From Thermoanaerobaculales bacterium (lineage in GTDB: Bacteria > Acidobacteriota > Thermoanaerobaculia > Thermoanaerobaculales > Sulfomarinibacteraceae), in the NCBI GenBank assembly GCA_025456145.1, contig JALOLD010000001.1:124001-188000 (forward strand): a stretch of DNA of 64,000 bases, written 5' to 3'. Position 1 is the first letter of the stretch. Every line of letters begins with the position of its first letter. The notes below the pieces were generated by a model. It had not been told where the DNA came from, made no database searches, and worked only from the letters and a program-made list of their open reading frames with translations. Shown one piece after another: positions 58,394-64,000 of the stretch. A program made the position numbers and the translations under genes.

Positions 58394-59971
58394 TCAGCTC
58401 TCGGTCCTCGGCGTCCCGGCGATCCGACCGTCGGGGGTCGTGCTCGGCCGCGCCGCCAGCGGGATCCGGACGGTGAAGCGGGTCCCCCGTCCGACCTCGG
58501 ACTCGACCTCGATGGTCCCACCGTGCTTGTCGACGATCTTGTTGGAGATGAAGAGGCCGAGCCCGGTGCCCTTGAGGCCCTTCGACGAGAAGAAGAGCGA
58601 GAAGATCTTCTCGCGGGTCTCCCGGTCCATCCCGACGCCGTCGTCGGCCACCTCGATGACCATCCAGGGCTCGGACCGCCGGGCCCTGACCTCGACCGTG
58701 TGGCCCGGCTTGTCGCCGTCCATCCGGCAGGCGTCGAGCGAGTTCTCGAGCAGGTTGATGAGCATCGCCCGGATCGCCTGCGGGTCGCCGTCGAAGCGGC
58801 CGATCTCCTCGGGCGCGTCGAACCGGATCTCGACCCCGATCTCCCTCGCCTTCTTCTCCACGCTCTCTCTCAGATCGCCGATCATCGCGGCGAGCGCGAT
58901 CGGCTCGACGGTCAGCTCGCGGTCCTTGGCGTAGTAGAGGATGTCGAGCACCATGGACCGTACCCGGTCCACGTTGCGTTGCACCATCTCCCAGCCCTTC
59001 TTGACCCGCTCCGGCTTGTCCCGCTCGAAGCCCGAGTTGACCATGTAGATGCCGCCGTCGAGCCCGGTCAGCAACCCCTTGATGCCGTGCGAGATCGAGC
59101 CGACGAGTAGCCCGATCGAGGTCAGCTGGTCCTGCAGCTGTCGGATCTGGGTGATGTCGACGCCCATCTCGATGACCGCCTCGACGATCCCCTCGGCGTT
59201 GCGCAGCGGAGCGGTGGTGACCAGGAGATTGAGCTCCTGGCCGTCCTTCGACAGCACCGACGCCTCGTAGTCGTGGGTCCGCCCGGTCTCGAAGGTGCTC
59301 ATCATCGGGCACGACAGACACTGCTCCTCGCGGTGCTTGTAGACCCGGAAGCACTCCTCGCCGATCCCGTCGCCGAAAACCTCGCGGAACCGGCGGTTGG
59401 CGTGCTGGATGACCCGGTCCGGACCCTGGACGGTGATGAAGCAGGGGACCTCCTCGAAGAGCTGGGCGAGCCGCTCCCGGCTCTGGTGGAGCTCCTCCTG
59501 GAGCTCCTTGACCTCGGCGATGTCGGTGTGCATCTCCATCACCGCGACGATCTCGCCTGAGGCGTCCCGAACCGGCGTCGTGTGCACCATCACCGGAACC
59601 TGGCGGCCGCCGGATGCGGTCAGCAGCTGCTCCGACGGGTGGTTCTGGCCGTCGCCGAAGGTCGCCTCGACCGGGCACTCGGGGCAGATCTCCTCGCGGT
59701 CCTTGTAGACCTTGAAGCAGTGCTGGCCGATCCGCTCGCCGAAGTCCTCGCGGAACCGCCGGTTGCCGGCGACGATCCGGAAGTCCCGGTCGTGGATCGA
59801 GAGGTAGCACGGCATCTCGTCCCAGTACCGCTGGTACATGAGCGAATCGGTGAGCTCGTGCGAGTTCACTTCGACGCCGTGCACCGCTCGTGCCGGGCGA
59901 GGGGCCCGACCGCCGGCCGCGCCGGGCGACGGCGCGGCCGGGTCGAGGCGGAGGGGCGATCCGTCGTCCAC
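58394..59971 (-). CDS. PAS-PAS histidine kinase with Cys motifs
   Basis: Two PAS domains each with C-x10-C-x2-CP (CFKVYKDREEICPECP; CFRVYKHREEQCLSCP); H box VGSISHGIKGLLTGLDGG; NLLENSLDAC; VADDGVGMD; KGTGLGLFISNKIV. GTG start 2 nt after the upstream stop. Confidence 0.92.
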   Translation of the reverse strand: MDDGSPLRLDPAAPSPGAAGGRAPRPARAVHGVEVNSHELTDSLMYQRYWDEMPCYLSIHDRDFRIVAGNRRFREDFGERIGQHCFKVYKDREEICPECPVEATFGDGQNHPSEQLLTASGGRQVPVMVHTTPVRDASGEIVAVMEMHTDIAEVKELQEELHQSRERLAQLFEEVPCFITVQGPDRVIQHANRRFREVFGDGIGEECFRVYKHREEQCLSCPMMSTFETGRTHDYEASVLSKDGQELNLLVTTAPLRNAEGIVEAVIEMGVDITQIRQLQDQLTSIGLLVGSISHGIKGLLTGLDGGIYMVNSGFERDKPERVKKGWEMVQRNVDRVRSMVLDILYYAKDRELTVEPIALAAMIGDLRESVEKKAREIGVEIRFDAPEEIGRFDGDPQAIRAMLINLLENSLDACRMDGDKPGHTVEVRARRSEPWMVIEVADDGVGMDRETREKIFSLFFSSKGLKGTGLGLFISNKIVDKHGGTIEVESEVGRGTRFTVRIPLAARPSTTPDGRIAGTPRTES

Positions 59972-59973
59972 GG

Positions 59974-61782
59974 TCAGTTCGCCTTCGCTTCGCGATGCTC
60001 GATGATGTGGGCGACATAGGACACGAGCTTGTCCTCGTCGACCGGCTTGTTGAGGTAGCCCTCGGGGGGCGGCACGGGCCGGTCGTAGATCACCTGGCGG
60101 AACTCGGGGTGCCCGGTCACCACGCACACCGGGATCTCCTGGGTCTCCTCCGTCCGACGCAGCTCGACGAAGGCGTCGACCCCGCTCTTGCCGGGCATCG
60201 ACAGGTCGAGGGAGATGAGATCGGGCTTGAAGGTCCTCGCCTTGGCGAGGCACTCGTTGCCGTCGGCCGCCTGCTCGACCTCGGCGCCGGCGTCCTCGAA
60301 CACGGTCACCAGGAAGGTCCTGATGTCCTCCTCGTCGTCGACCACCAGCACCTTGCGGCCGGCGAGCGGCGCGGCGGCGGCGGGGGCGGCGACGGGGACC
60401 GGGCGGGCGGCCGCCGCCGGTTCCTCGCTCGCGACCGCGGCGACGGCGACCGGCCGACTCTTCATCACGTAGCACTCCTCGAGGACGAGCGCGTCGGCGA
60501 CGAGGTCGACGAGCTGCTTGACCTCGCAGCCGAGCTTGTAGTGCTTGATCAGGTCGGACAGGCCGTCGACGCAGTTGTGGCAGCTCGTGACCACGATCTC
60601 GGCGCCGGTCTCTCGGATCTGATTGGCCTTGATCTGGGCCGACTTGAGGCGCCGCGGAGTGTACTCGGACATCGACATCGCGCCGCCGCCGCCGGTGCAG
60701 CAGAAGTTCTCGGCGCGGTTCGGGTACATCTCCTGGAAGTCGGTGGTCACCAGTCGGAGCAGCTCGCGCGGCTCCTCGTAGAAGCCGCAGCTGCGGGCGT
60801 TGTTGCACGAGTCGTGGAAGGTCACCCGCTTGGGGTTCTTGGTCGGGTCGACGACGATCTTGCCCTCCTTGATGTAGTTGAGCATGGTGATGACCGAGCT
60901 CTCCATCGGGAAGGCCTGGGCGTCGCCCGACCAGTTGACGCCCTCGCAACGGGTCGAGCGGTAGCCGTGGCCGCACTCGGAGATGACGATCTTGTCGACG
61001 CCGAGCTCGCGCGCCTTGTCGTACTCGCGCTTGGCGGAGGCGCCGCCGAGCCCGTCATCGCCCGAGAAGAGGCCGAAGTTGGTGTTGTCCCAGCCCTCCG
61101 AGGGCATGGTCCAGTCCTCGCCGGCGGCCCAGAAGATCAGCGCCGCCTCCTTGATCGTCCGCGGGTCGTACTTCACCTCGCGGGGGTTGATCGCATACAT
61201 CACCCGGGCGCCGGGCTTGTCGACCGGGATCGCGGCCTCGCCGTGGCCGAGGTCCTCCTCGAGCTCCTCGGACATCCACTCGAGGGTGTCGAGGTAGTCC
61301 TCCTTGAGGACGCCCATCTGGTTGCCGAGCTCCCACTGGTCCTTCGACACGACGCGGACGCCCTCCGGCATGACCCCGACGTGGGTCAGCAGACCGCGCA
61401 TGATCCGGTTGAGGGTCGCGGTGTCGACGCCCATTGGGCAGTTGATCGTGCAGCGGCGGCAGTTGGTGCAGGTCCCGAAGGCGATGTCCTTGAGCTTGTC
61501 GAGGTCGTCGTCGGTCAGCGGCGCCTTGTCGGCGCCGACCCACCATGGGAACACGCTGCCCGTCCAGTCGTGGTTGGCCTTGAACAGCTTGCGCACCTGA
61601 TCGGCCTTGTACGACGGCGTCATCTTGGGGTCGTCGGGGTGGGACAGGACGTAGTGGCAGCACTCGTTGCACATCCCGCAGTGGACGCAGCCGACCAGCG
61701 AGCCGACGACCTGGCGGTTCAGCTTCCGCGCGAGCTGCTCTTCCATCATCTTGATCTTGTGGGTCTTGGCTGGTTTGCTCAT
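59974..61782 (-). CDS. HdrD/DsrK-like Fe-S oxidoreductase fused to a C-terminal response-regulator receiver domain
   Basis: CVHCGMCNECCHYV; CTNCRRCTINCPMGVD; FHDSCNNARSCGFYEEPRELLR...ENFCCTGGGGAMSMSEYTPRR...VVTSCHNCVDGLSDLIKHY; Ala/Pro linker; KVLVVDDEEDIRTFLVTVFEDAGAEVEQAADGNECLAKARTFKPDLISLDLSMPGKSGVDAF...CVVTGH...LNKPVDEDKL. Confidence 0.94.
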   Translation of the reverse strand: MSKPAKTHKIKMMEEQLARKLNRQVVGSLVGCVHCGMCNECCHYVLSHPDDPKMTPSYKADQVRKLFKANHDWTGSVFPWWVGADKAPLTDDDLDKLKDIAFGTCTNCRRCTINCPMGVDTATLNRIMRGLLTHVGVMPEGVRVVSKDQWELGNQMGVLKEDYLDTLEWMSEELEEDLGHGEAAIPVDKPGARVMYAINPREVKYDPRTIKEAALIFWAAGEDWTMPSEGWDNTNFGLFSGDDGLGGASAKREYDKARELGVDKIVISECGHGYRSTRCEGVNWSGDAQAFPMESSVITMLNYIKEGKIVVDPTKNPKRVTFHDSCNNARSCGFYEEPRELLRLVTTDFQEMYPNRAENFCCTGGGGAMSMSEYTPRRLKSAQIKANQIRETGAEIVVTSCHNCVDGLSDLIKHYKLGCEVKQLVDLVADALVLEECYVMKSRPVAVAAVASEEPAAAARPVPVAAPAAAAPLAGRKVLVVDDEEDIRTFLVTVFEDAGAEVEQAADGNECLAKARTFKPDLISLDLSMPGKSGVDAFVELRRTEETQEIPVCVVTGHPEFRQVIYDRPVPPPEGYLNKPVDEDKLVSYVAHIIEHREAKAN

Positions 61783-61791
61783 GGCTGGCTC

Positions 61792-62478
61792 CTATCCACG
61801 GGCGATCGGATAGCTGCCCCGGTGACCGAGGGTGCGGCCGATCCAGAGACGGGTGAAGGGGTAGTAGAGGTAGTGGGAGATCTTGGAGAACGGGACGTAG
61901 ATCAGGAAGAAGCTGGTGAGGAAGAGGTAGGCCACCAGGAGGTTGACGCTCTCGAAGCCCGCGACGCCCGCGAGATGGGCCTGGGTCACCGCGCCGAGAC
62001 CGAACCAGATGGTCAGCATGAACAGCGAGAAGTAGTCGTCGGGGGTGCTGATGAGCTTCATCACCGGTCTGAACAGCCGCCGGAAGACCCGGTAGACGGC
62101 CACCCCAAACGCCGCGACCAGCGCGACGCCGCAGACCCAGGCGAAGGGCCTGGCGGCGACCAGGCCCGGAGCGATGGTGCTGAGGAAGGCGAGCGAAATC
62201 CCGGCGACCACGCCGATGTGGAAGATCACGAAGGTCAGGTAGAAGGCGAAGCCCTTCCGGGTGCTCTCCATCGACCAGGGCATGGCCACGTTGAACAGCG
62301 AGTAGAAGCCGCCGCGCTTCGCGTTCGTCCTCGCCGGCGAGCCGGGCGCCGACCTGTCGACCCCGGGCTTGAACTTGAACAGCCAGCGCAGCCGCATCGT
62401 GTAGACGACCGCCATGACGATCAGGGCGATCCAGTGGACAACCTCGGCGGTGTGCAGCAGTGAGCTCGACTCGTGCAT
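61792..62478 (-). CDS. b-type cytochrome-like membrane subunit (NarI/DsrM/TmcC-like)
   Basis: HTAEVVHWIALIVMAVVYTMRLRWLFKF; FYLTFVIFHIGVVAGISLAFL; SLFMLTIWFGLGAVTQAH; YVPFSKISHYLYYPFTRLWIGRTLGHRG. Adjacent to the Fe-S subunit. Confidence 0.82.
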   Translation of the reverse strand: MHESSSLLHTAEVVHWIALIVMAVVYTMRLRWLFKFKPGVDRSAPGSPARTNAKRGGFYSLFNVAMPWSMESTRKGFAFYLTFVIFHIGVVAGISLAFLSTIAPGLVAARPFAWVCGVALVAAFGVAVYRVFRRLFRPVMKLISTPDDYFSLFMLTIWFGLGAVTQAHLAGVAGFESVNLLVAYLFLTSFFLIYVPFSKISHYLYYPFTRLWIGRTLGHRGSYPIARG

Positions 62479-62479
62479 G

Positions 62480-63007
62480 TCACGCTCCTCCTTCGAGCTT
62501 GGCGGTGAACGGCCCGATCTCACGCGGGTCCTGGACCACGATGAGGACGTCCTCGAGCCCGCCGCCATTGGCCAGATGGCGGCTGATGACGTCGACCATG
62601 ACCTTGGCGCAGAGGTCCATCGGCACCTGGTACATGCCGGTGCCGATCGGTGGGAAGGCGAGCTGCTTGATGCCCTTCTCCTCAGCCACCTTGAGCGCCG
62701 AGCTCACCGCCCTCTCGAGCTTCCCGGCCTCGTCCTCCTCGCGGAACTTGGGGCCGTTGACGTGGATGATGTGCTCCGCCTTGAGGGCGCCGGCCTGGGT
62801 CACCACCGCCTCGCCCGTGGGCACCGAGCCGTGCGTGTCGAGCTCCTTCTGGATGACGATTCCGCCGCGCTGCTGGATGGCGCCACCGAAACCCGAGCCC
62901 AGCTTGGCGTCCTCGGTGATGTCGAAGACGAAGGCCTCGACCTCGAGGTCGGTGATGTCGCCACGGACCATCCTGAGCCGCTTACTGCCGATCGCTCGCT
63001 CCACCAT
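62480..63007 (-). CDS. Macro domain protein (ADP-ribose-binding/hydrolase type)
   Basis: RLRMVRGDITDLEVEAFVFDITEDAKLGSGFGGAIQQRGGIVIQKEL...GEAVVTQAGALKAEHIIHVNGPKF...IKQLAFPPIGTGMYQVPMDLCAKVMVDVI. SD AGGAGG. Confidence 0.92.
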   Translation of the reverse strand: MVERAIGSKRLRMVRGDITDLEVEAFVFDITEDAKLGSGFGGAIQQRGGIVIQKELDTHGSVPTGEAVVTQAGALKAEHIIHVNGPKFREEDEAGKLERAVSSALKVAEEKGIKQLAFPPIGTGMYQVPMDLCAKVMVDVISRHLANGGGLEDVLIVVQDPREIGPFTAKLEGGA

Positions 63008-63070
63008 GACATTCCTCCTGATACCGATCATCGAACCCTCCGGGCCGCGCCGTCCGCGGCGGCCCGGTCG

Positions 63071-63547
63071 TCAATCCCCCGGCGGCCGGTCGACCGCCGT
63101 TGCCAGCTGCAATCCCAGATCGGGGCCCATGCATCGCGTCCACGACGGGTCGAGCAGGTCCGCCAGGGTGAAGTCGTCGAGGACCTCGGCGATCCGCCGG
63201 TTGATCAGCGAGTAGACCACCCGGCACTCGCAGAACTCGGCCCGCAGGCAGGTGTCCGGCGCCTCGACGCAGTCGACGACGCAGATCGGGCCGATCGACG
63301 CCTCGATGATCTGCCGGATCGTGATCTCCGCAGCCGGCCGGGCGAGCTGGTAGCCGCCCGATCGTCCGGCCACGCTGCGTACCAGACCGGCCGAGCGCAA
63401 GGCCGGCGCGAGCTGCTCGAGATAACCGTGCGAGATCCCGGTGCGATCGGCGACCACCGACAGGCTGACCGGGCTCTTCGGGTCTCCGAACCGTGCGATG
63501 TCGAGCATCAGCCGGAGGGCGTAGCGACCGCGGGTCGAGATCCTCAT
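63071..63547 (-). CDS. Rrf2-family transcriptional regulator with Cys cluster
   Basis: MRISTRGRYALRLMLDIARFGDPKSPVSLSVVADRTGISHGYLEQLAPALRSAGLVRSVAGRSGGYQLARPAAEITIRQIIEASIG...CVVDCVEAPDTCLRAEFCECRV. Confidence 0.95.
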   Translation of the reverse strand: MRISTRGRYALRLMLDIARFGDPKSPVSLSVVADRTGISHGYLEQLAPALRSAGLVRSVAGRSGGYQLARPAAEITIRQIIEASIGPICVVDCVEAPDTCLRAEFCECRVVYSLINRRIAEVLDDFTLADLLDPSWTRCMGPDLGLQLATAVDRPPGD

Positions 63548-63708: not shown

Positions 63709-64000
63709 ATGGCAGCGAAATCCGCCCTGATCATCGACGACGAGCCCGATGTCACGACCTATCACGGCACCGTGCTGAGCGACCACGGCTGGCAGGTCTT
63801 CACCGCCAACCGCGGCGCCGACGGCATCGCGATCGCCCGGGAGAAGGTCCCGAGCGTCATCCTGCTCGACGTGATGATGCCGGAAAAGGGCGGGTTGAGC
63901 ACGCTGATCGCCCTGCGCAAGGACGAGCGCACCAAGGCCATCCCGGTCGTCCTGGTGACCGGGATCCAGGCGAACCTGACCGCCGACTTCGAGGCCTTCC
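63709..64000 (+). CDS. Response-regulator receiver protein, truncated by window end
   Basis: MAAKSALIIDDEPDVTTYHGTVLSDHGWQVFTANRGADGIAIAREKVPSVILLDVMMPEKGGLSTLIALRKDERTKAIPVVLVTG; SD GGAGG. Confidence 0.93.
   Translation, partial: MAAKSALIIDDEPDVTTYHGTVLSDHGWQVFTANRGADGIAIAREKVPSVILLDVMMPEKGGLSTLIALRKDERTKAIPVVLVTGIQANLTADFEAF

Follow-up and report, generated by a model that had tools for sequence, protein, structure and literature searches.

A receiver domain fused to a CCG-type Fe-S protein and encoded with a sensor kinase in dsr-bearing bacteria

Introduction

To our knowledge, how sulfate reducers regulate the flow of electrons into sulfite reduction is largely unknown. Response regulators usually act through DNA-binding or second-messenger output domains. 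The window (the whole 64,000-nucleotide stretch of Thermoanaerobaculales DNA analysed here) contains a gene whose product, P0002, carries a receiver domain (REC) on a Cys-rich (CCG) Fe-S protein. This locus raises the questions of whether the join is real and of what a receiver would do on an electron-transfer protein. A sequence-only reading had described the product as an HdrD/DsrK-like Fe-S protein with an intact receiver, and had suggested that phosphorylation may control electron transfer or complex assembly in this energy-metabolism enzyme.

Results

Domain structure of P0002

P0002 is encoded by 602 codons that run without interruption from an ATG (Table 1). The sequence-only reading had reported this frame without naming a strand; it lies on the minus strand and all the motifs quoted are present. 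The plus strand is also open over the same bases, but we rejected that ORF as antisense GC-rich noise. Pfam finds the three expected domains, Fer4_8, CCG and Response_reg, with the catalytic residues of the receiver in place.

The Fer4_8 match (E 7.8e-9, 36.4 bits against a cut-off of 27) holds the motifs C32-C35-C38-C42 and C105-C108-C111-C115. Both fit the ferredoxin pattern, and P0002 is predicted to bind two [4Fe-4S] clusters. The CCG domain (E 5.3e-14, 52.5 bits against 20.6) contains the half-motif C326-x34-C361C362-x38-C401-x2-C404. Judged by its CCG and Fe-S motifs, P0002 classifies as a member of the CCG / HdrD-DsrK-TmcB (TmcB/HmcF/DsrK) superfamily, as first suggested, although TmcB/HmcF are closer to it than HdrD.

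The Response_reg match (E 5.5e-20, 72 bits against a gathering score of 30.2) includes the acidic pair D482/D483, the phospho-acceptor D526, T556 and K579. Conservation is unusually strong from Thr556 to Lys579, where the family shows the alpha4-beta5 signature TG[HRK]PE[FLM]R..IY...PEG[YF]..KP and the window reads TGHPEFRQVIYDRPVPPPEGYLNKP. Three residues ahead of the switch Thr, all 39 fused receivers carry a cysteine, Cys553 in P0002 (60124-60126, minus strand).

In a fold comparison with solved structures, the Fe-S/CCG part comes closest to EtfD and LutA, and the C-terminus to ordinary receivers. An AlphaFold model (mean pLDDT 74.5), proposed earlier as a view of the REC-CCG interface, gives the domain boundaries and a disordered stretch at residues 447-469 (pLDDT <50), while its interface is not reliable (pTM 0.54).

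Table 1 Features of P0002 and its operon in the window
Feature	Coordinates	Strand	Basis
Rrf2-family regulator, first operon gene	63071..63547	-	PF02082 and TIGR00738
Macro-domain protein, 183 aa, conserved operon member	62480..63031	-	PF01661
Membrane anchor, 228 aa, HmcE/TmcC-like	61792..62478	-	About 5 hydrophobic segments; profile match; conservation
CCG-REC fusion protein P0002, 602 aa	59974..61782	-	Frame, Pfam domains and 39 aligned full-length sequences
Fe-S region, residues 31-119, two 4-Cys [4Fe-4S] motifs	61426..61692	-	Fer4_8
CCG (Cys-rich) domain, residues 320-404	60571..60825	-	PF02754
Ala/Pro-rich flexible linker, residues 440-474	60361..60465	-	Sequence unconserved and 22-79 aa long among the 39 fused sequences; low pLDDT
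Receiver domain (REC), residues 478-590	60013..60351	-	PF00072 and conservation
Soluble PAS-PAS histidine kinase, 525 aa, H-box His295	58394..59971	-	Pfam and conservation
Stand-alone receiver protein (free REC), 132 aa	57992..58390	-	PF00072; same position in most homologous operons

The fusion is genuine and found in several phyla

To describe conservation, we use 39 aligned full-length fused sequences, which come to about 34 distinct loci, the window's included, once repeat matches are removed. The concern that the linker marks an assembly join or frameshift, to which only its low complexity points, has a practically nil probability and we rejected it, given that the same join recurs in these roughly 34 loci from separate assemblies, including genus-mates 86-89% identical, and that the linker is disordered in the model. 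The CCG-REC join is thus confirmed as genuine biology.

All eight Fe-S cysteines and the CCG-domain cysteines C326, C361, C362, C401 and C404 are invariant in the 39 fused sequences. So are D483, the phospho-Asp D526, K579 and a Thr or Ser at 556, and D482 is kept in 38. Likewise, CCG, Fer4 and Response_reg are all matched in 25 of 25 members of alignment A1.

Genome contigs were scanned for relatives; of the 37 obtained, the majority are fused, at 57-88% identity. The fused loci come from Thermoanaerobaculales and other Acidobacteriota, Zixibacteria, Myxococcota, Planctomycetota, Syntrophaceae and LCP-89, and those aligned span Acidobacteriota, Zixibacteria, Desulfobacterota, Myxococcota, Planctomycetota and LCP-89. 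Whole-genome searches find the fusion in 11 of 148 genomes of the window's class, at least 8 of 198 Desulfobacterota, about 30 of 133 Zixibacteria and 5 of 237 Myxococcota. One locus that looked unfused (L212) was rejected as a case of receiver loss, as it has a gap of Ns inside the REC.

In the CCG-domain tree, the fused proteins all belong to a single supported clade that is separate from TmcB, DsrK, DsrK2 and the DsrC-linked proteins. Inside this clade also fall a group in which the receiver is split off and a universal stress protein (USP) gene is present, and one REC-less protein (L043). In the receiver tree, which has 132 columns and many weak forks, the fused receivers all group together (99/88), which favours a single fusion event. 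The split receivers of the USP-type operons fall outside this group; fusion followed by loss and replacement is therefore likelier there than simple fission. Two stand-alone receivers nest within the fused clade (L061:10070-10516, on G000 contig 71, and L028:6919-7302), apparently as copies released from the fusion.

Although the fusion is widespread, we found no description of it in the open-licence literature searched, where a description elsewhere is possible, and hence no sign of the prior characterisation that had been considered. The same literature gave no match for a DsrK with a receiver domain or for DVU0259. Of the curated families tested, none fits the fusion and its operon, whereas the individual parts, namely CCG subunits, receivers and kinases beside tmc genes, are already known.

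A conserved operon surrounds the fusion gene

What the sequence-only reading had missed is the family: the gene for P0002 is part of a macro-anchor-(CCG-REC)-kinase-REC operon that is conserved among dsr-bearing bacteria. Along the minus strand of the window, its genes come in the order Rrf2 regulator, macro domain, membrane anchor, CCG-REC, PAS-PAS kinase and free REC, with gaps of 39, 1, 9, 2 and 3 bp. The order from macro domain to kinase is kept in dozens of loci in several phyla, usually with the free REC next, and the regulator is an Rrf2 or a MerR-type HTH protein. No c-type cytochrome subunit was seen in the window operon. Another stand-alone receiver gene (63709-64000, plus strand) runs past the window end, divergent from the operon, and has the same placement in several relatives.

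The macro-domain protein is a near-constant member across phyla. It has FDIT/GSGF in place of the usual NAAN/GGGV ADP-ribose motif, and on account of this variant may have another ligand, or a related nucleotide as its substrate.

For the membrane anchor, His87 and His202 are invariant and are possible ligands of heme b, which would give one bis-His heme. The protein scores 36.5 bits against the TmcC equivalog cut-off of 240 and 46.2 bits against 275 for HmcE, its best match, so that from these profiles we consider it a remote homologue only of either.

The kinase has no hydrophobic segment. It matches HATPase_c (93.4 bits), and HisKA at 16.7 bits, below the cut-off of 26.9; the phospho-acceptor His295 is invariant in 31 of 31 sequences, and we classify the protein as a histidine kinase. 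Each of its PAS domains carries a C-x10-C-x2-C set (positions 85/96/99 and 207/218/221) with a nearby His, conserved in about 30 of 31 homologues. This pattern suggests a metal, Fe-S or thiol redox sensor. The free REC consists of a receiver without an output domain.

Receiver and kinase tend to be kept or lost together

Two Desulfobacterota loci (L174 and L176) have an anchor-CCG-REC-HK-REC operon in which the REC is a separate gene. With the fused gene of the window, they form a Rosetta-stone pair. The separate receivers of split operons are of the DVU0259 type where tested (L174 and L175), with 106 bits against the curated cut-off of 160. In further unfused relatives (L163-L169), USP and HEAT-repeat genes lie between the CCG gene and a REC-kinase pair. 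This layout resembles that of the response regulators, kinases and universal stress protein gene reported beside tmc/hmc clusters (PMC5109826).

Where the CCG protein has lost its receiver, either the kinase is missing as well or a free REC stands in place of the fused one. For example, both unfused members without any operon REC (L043 and L048) are also without a kinase. One locus is an exception (L181), with the fused gene and the free REC present and the sole nearby kinase on the opposite strand.

Distances between fused receivers also track distances between kinases beyond the divergence of the CCG part (partial r 0.53, a value reached in 0 of 1000 permutations of this crude test), compared to a partial r of only 0.15 for the free REC. 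The kinase is predicted to be specific for the receiver of P0002.

The operon is linked to dsr genes and DsrC

The genome of the window has dsrA and dsrC by family matches, along with dsrB, a dsrD-like gene, dsrMKJOP, dsrMK2 and a TmcB of its own, on another contig. Overall, dsrA is above cut-off in 26 of 30 operon-bearing genomes, and incompleteness is a possible cause for the 4 assemblies in which it is not. Within the class sample of 148 genomes, dsrA is found in 9 of 11 operon carriers compared to 10 of 137 non-carriers (Fisher p 6e-8, a value confounded by ancestry as relatedness is uncorrected). The assemblies of the two carriers without dsrA are 83-84% complete. The hosts of the operon, many of them uncultured, are probably sulfate reducers.

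Gene neighbourhoods point the same way. In one locus (L136) the operon adjoins dsrABD divergently, and in another (L031) it lies between dsrAB/dsrC and dsrMK2/dsrMK. The fused operons have no dsrC of their own, with L031 as the one case of a neighbouring copy. The nearest relatives without REC form a clade with about 40-44% identity whose genes stand in DsrC-anchor-CCG triplets, and the DsrC proteins of these triplets keep both C-terminal Cys. DsrC has been proposed as the partner of Tmc (PMC4215793) and of DsrMK, which is described as reducing DsrC-trisulfide (PMC6018796). Taken together, the genomic associations suggest that the CCG-REC complex probably acts on DsrC.

The triplets of Acidobacteriota (L050-L054 and L177-L180) deserve separate mention. 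In the class sample, 10 genomes with a triplet-type match, four of them checked for DsrC adjacency, are all without dsrA. DsrC may therefore work outside sulfite reduction in these bacteria, and the triplets are a lead on such a use. In Nitrospirae, a DsrC-like gene follows an unfused CCG member (L048). Its product (L048:2506-2835) has Tyr at the CysB position and an extra Cys upstream. The CCG gene has an assembly frameshift near codon 280, which leaves its REC-less end and the DsrC-like neighbour standing.

Discussion

We propose that P0002 and the b-type anchor would form a two-subunit membrane complex, built like TmcC-TmcB or DsrM-DsrK, with P0002 as its catalytic subunit on the cytoplasmic side. 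Electrons would pass between the quinone pool (by way of the anchor heme), the two [4Fe-4S] clusters and a CCG cluster, which would act on a cysteine-based partner; DsrC of the sulfite-reduction pathway is the likeliest candidate. Asp526 would be phosphorylated by the soluble PAS-PAS kinase encoded next to P0002, which probably senses redox state or thiols. Phosphorylation would alter the docking of the receiver on the complex itself or on a partner, and would thereby adjust the delivery of electrons to DsrC, up or down, to the redox state.

We judge the chances about even that the operon encodes such a quinone-linked electron-transfer complex, probably working on DsrC, with activity or docking set by phosphorylation of the tethered receiver. 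The phosphorylation control first suggested from the sequence fits the in-operon kinase, the conservation of the receiver, the joint losses and the covariation. The fusion, its conservation, the operon, the association with dsr genes and DsrC and the covariation are observed; heme and cluster content, DsrC as substrate, kinase specificity, phosphotransfer and gating are the parts that we infer. Since the tether is flexible and the linker unconserved, recruitment or sensing is as possible as gating.

The main alternative, in which the kinase receives information from the complex, is on the whole unlikely, though far from idle. The tethered receiver would be mainly a docking or phosphate-return site that brings the soluble kinase to the respiratory complex, where its Cys-rich PAS domains would read the local redox or sulfur state and the free REC would carry the signal onward. 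A kinase without a hydrophobic segment would need such a tether, and the Cys/His set in both PAS domains of about 30 of 31 sequences, the flexible linker and the free REC next in nearly every operon agree with it. However, the fused receiver covaries with the kinase far more than the free REC does, and the free REC lacks an output domain through which to act. That the fused receiver strictly conserves its phosphorylation residues fits either direction of flow.

It is also conceivable, but rather improbable, that architecture and control are as we propose and that the CCG partner is another thiol/disulfide carrier, a ferredoxin-type acceptor or a low-molecular-weight thiol. CCG proteins do have varied partners, EtfD and LutA come nearest among solved structures, and the fused operons bring no dsrC along; co-occurrence with dsr genes, adjacency to dsr clusters and the DsrC-linked related clade speak for DsrC nonetheless. 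We give very little credence to an ordinary TmcB/DsrK-like subunit whose receiver is a phosphate sink or neutral relic: the released free paralogues do mark the domain as mobile, but Asp526, Lys579 and Thr/Ser556 are intact in 39 of 39 sequences across phyla, the alpha4-beta5 signature is strongly conserved, and receiver and kinase are lost jointly.

Returning to control of the complex through its tethered receiver, a CCG-REC protein with a sensor kinase encoded next door suggests that anaerobic respiration in the hosts is switched by phosphorylation. Somewhat more tentatively, at a little less than an even chance, two-component phosphorylation would directly control the catalysis or assembly of a respiratory complex in several phyla, with the receiver as a redox-triggered valve between the quinone pool and DsrC. 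A fused receiver, an in-operon kinase and split or lost versions in relatives make a compact, testable case of fast post-translational control of anaerobic respiration. Through the fusion, the enzyme itself would also be connected with the kinase, regulator and stress-protein genes found near tmc clusters, which are so far unexplained.

Comparison with known systems

One of the closest known systems is the Tmc complex, in which TmcB (DVU_0264 in Desulfovibrio vulgaris) and its anchor TmcC combine, like P0002 and its anchor, an Fe-S and CCG protein with a membrane partner and are associated with sulfate reducers. We rejected P0002 as a TmcB: it scores 315.8 bits against the NF045724 cut-off of 735 and lies in a separate clade, and the host has a TmcB elsewhere (710.8 bits). 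On the Tmc side the receiver is separate, whereas in P0002 it is fused.

For HmcF of the Hmc complex the score of P0002 equals that for TmcB, below the NF045711 cut-off of 750, and this assignment was rejected as well. HmcE gives the best match of the anchor, yet the window operon has neither the Hmc cytochrome nor other Hmc subunits. DsrK of DsrMKJOP and its paralogue DsrK2 are, like P0002, membrane-anchored CCG Fe-S proteins of sulfate reducers. We rejected P0002 as a DsrK at 242.6 bits against the NF045796 cut-off of 400 and a position outside the DsrK/DsrK2 branch; DsrK carries no REC, and the host has a true DsrK and DsrK2 elsewhere.

The DsrC-anchor-CCG triplets of Acidobacteriota share a closely related CCG/anchor pair and differ in having DsrC in the operon and no REC or kinase adjoining. 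Finally, the best specific family for the receiver of P0002 is NF045717 (DVU0259_DivK), at 77.9 bits against a curated cut-off of 160. Unlike response regulators of the DVU0259 family, the receiver in the window is covalently attached to its presumed target.
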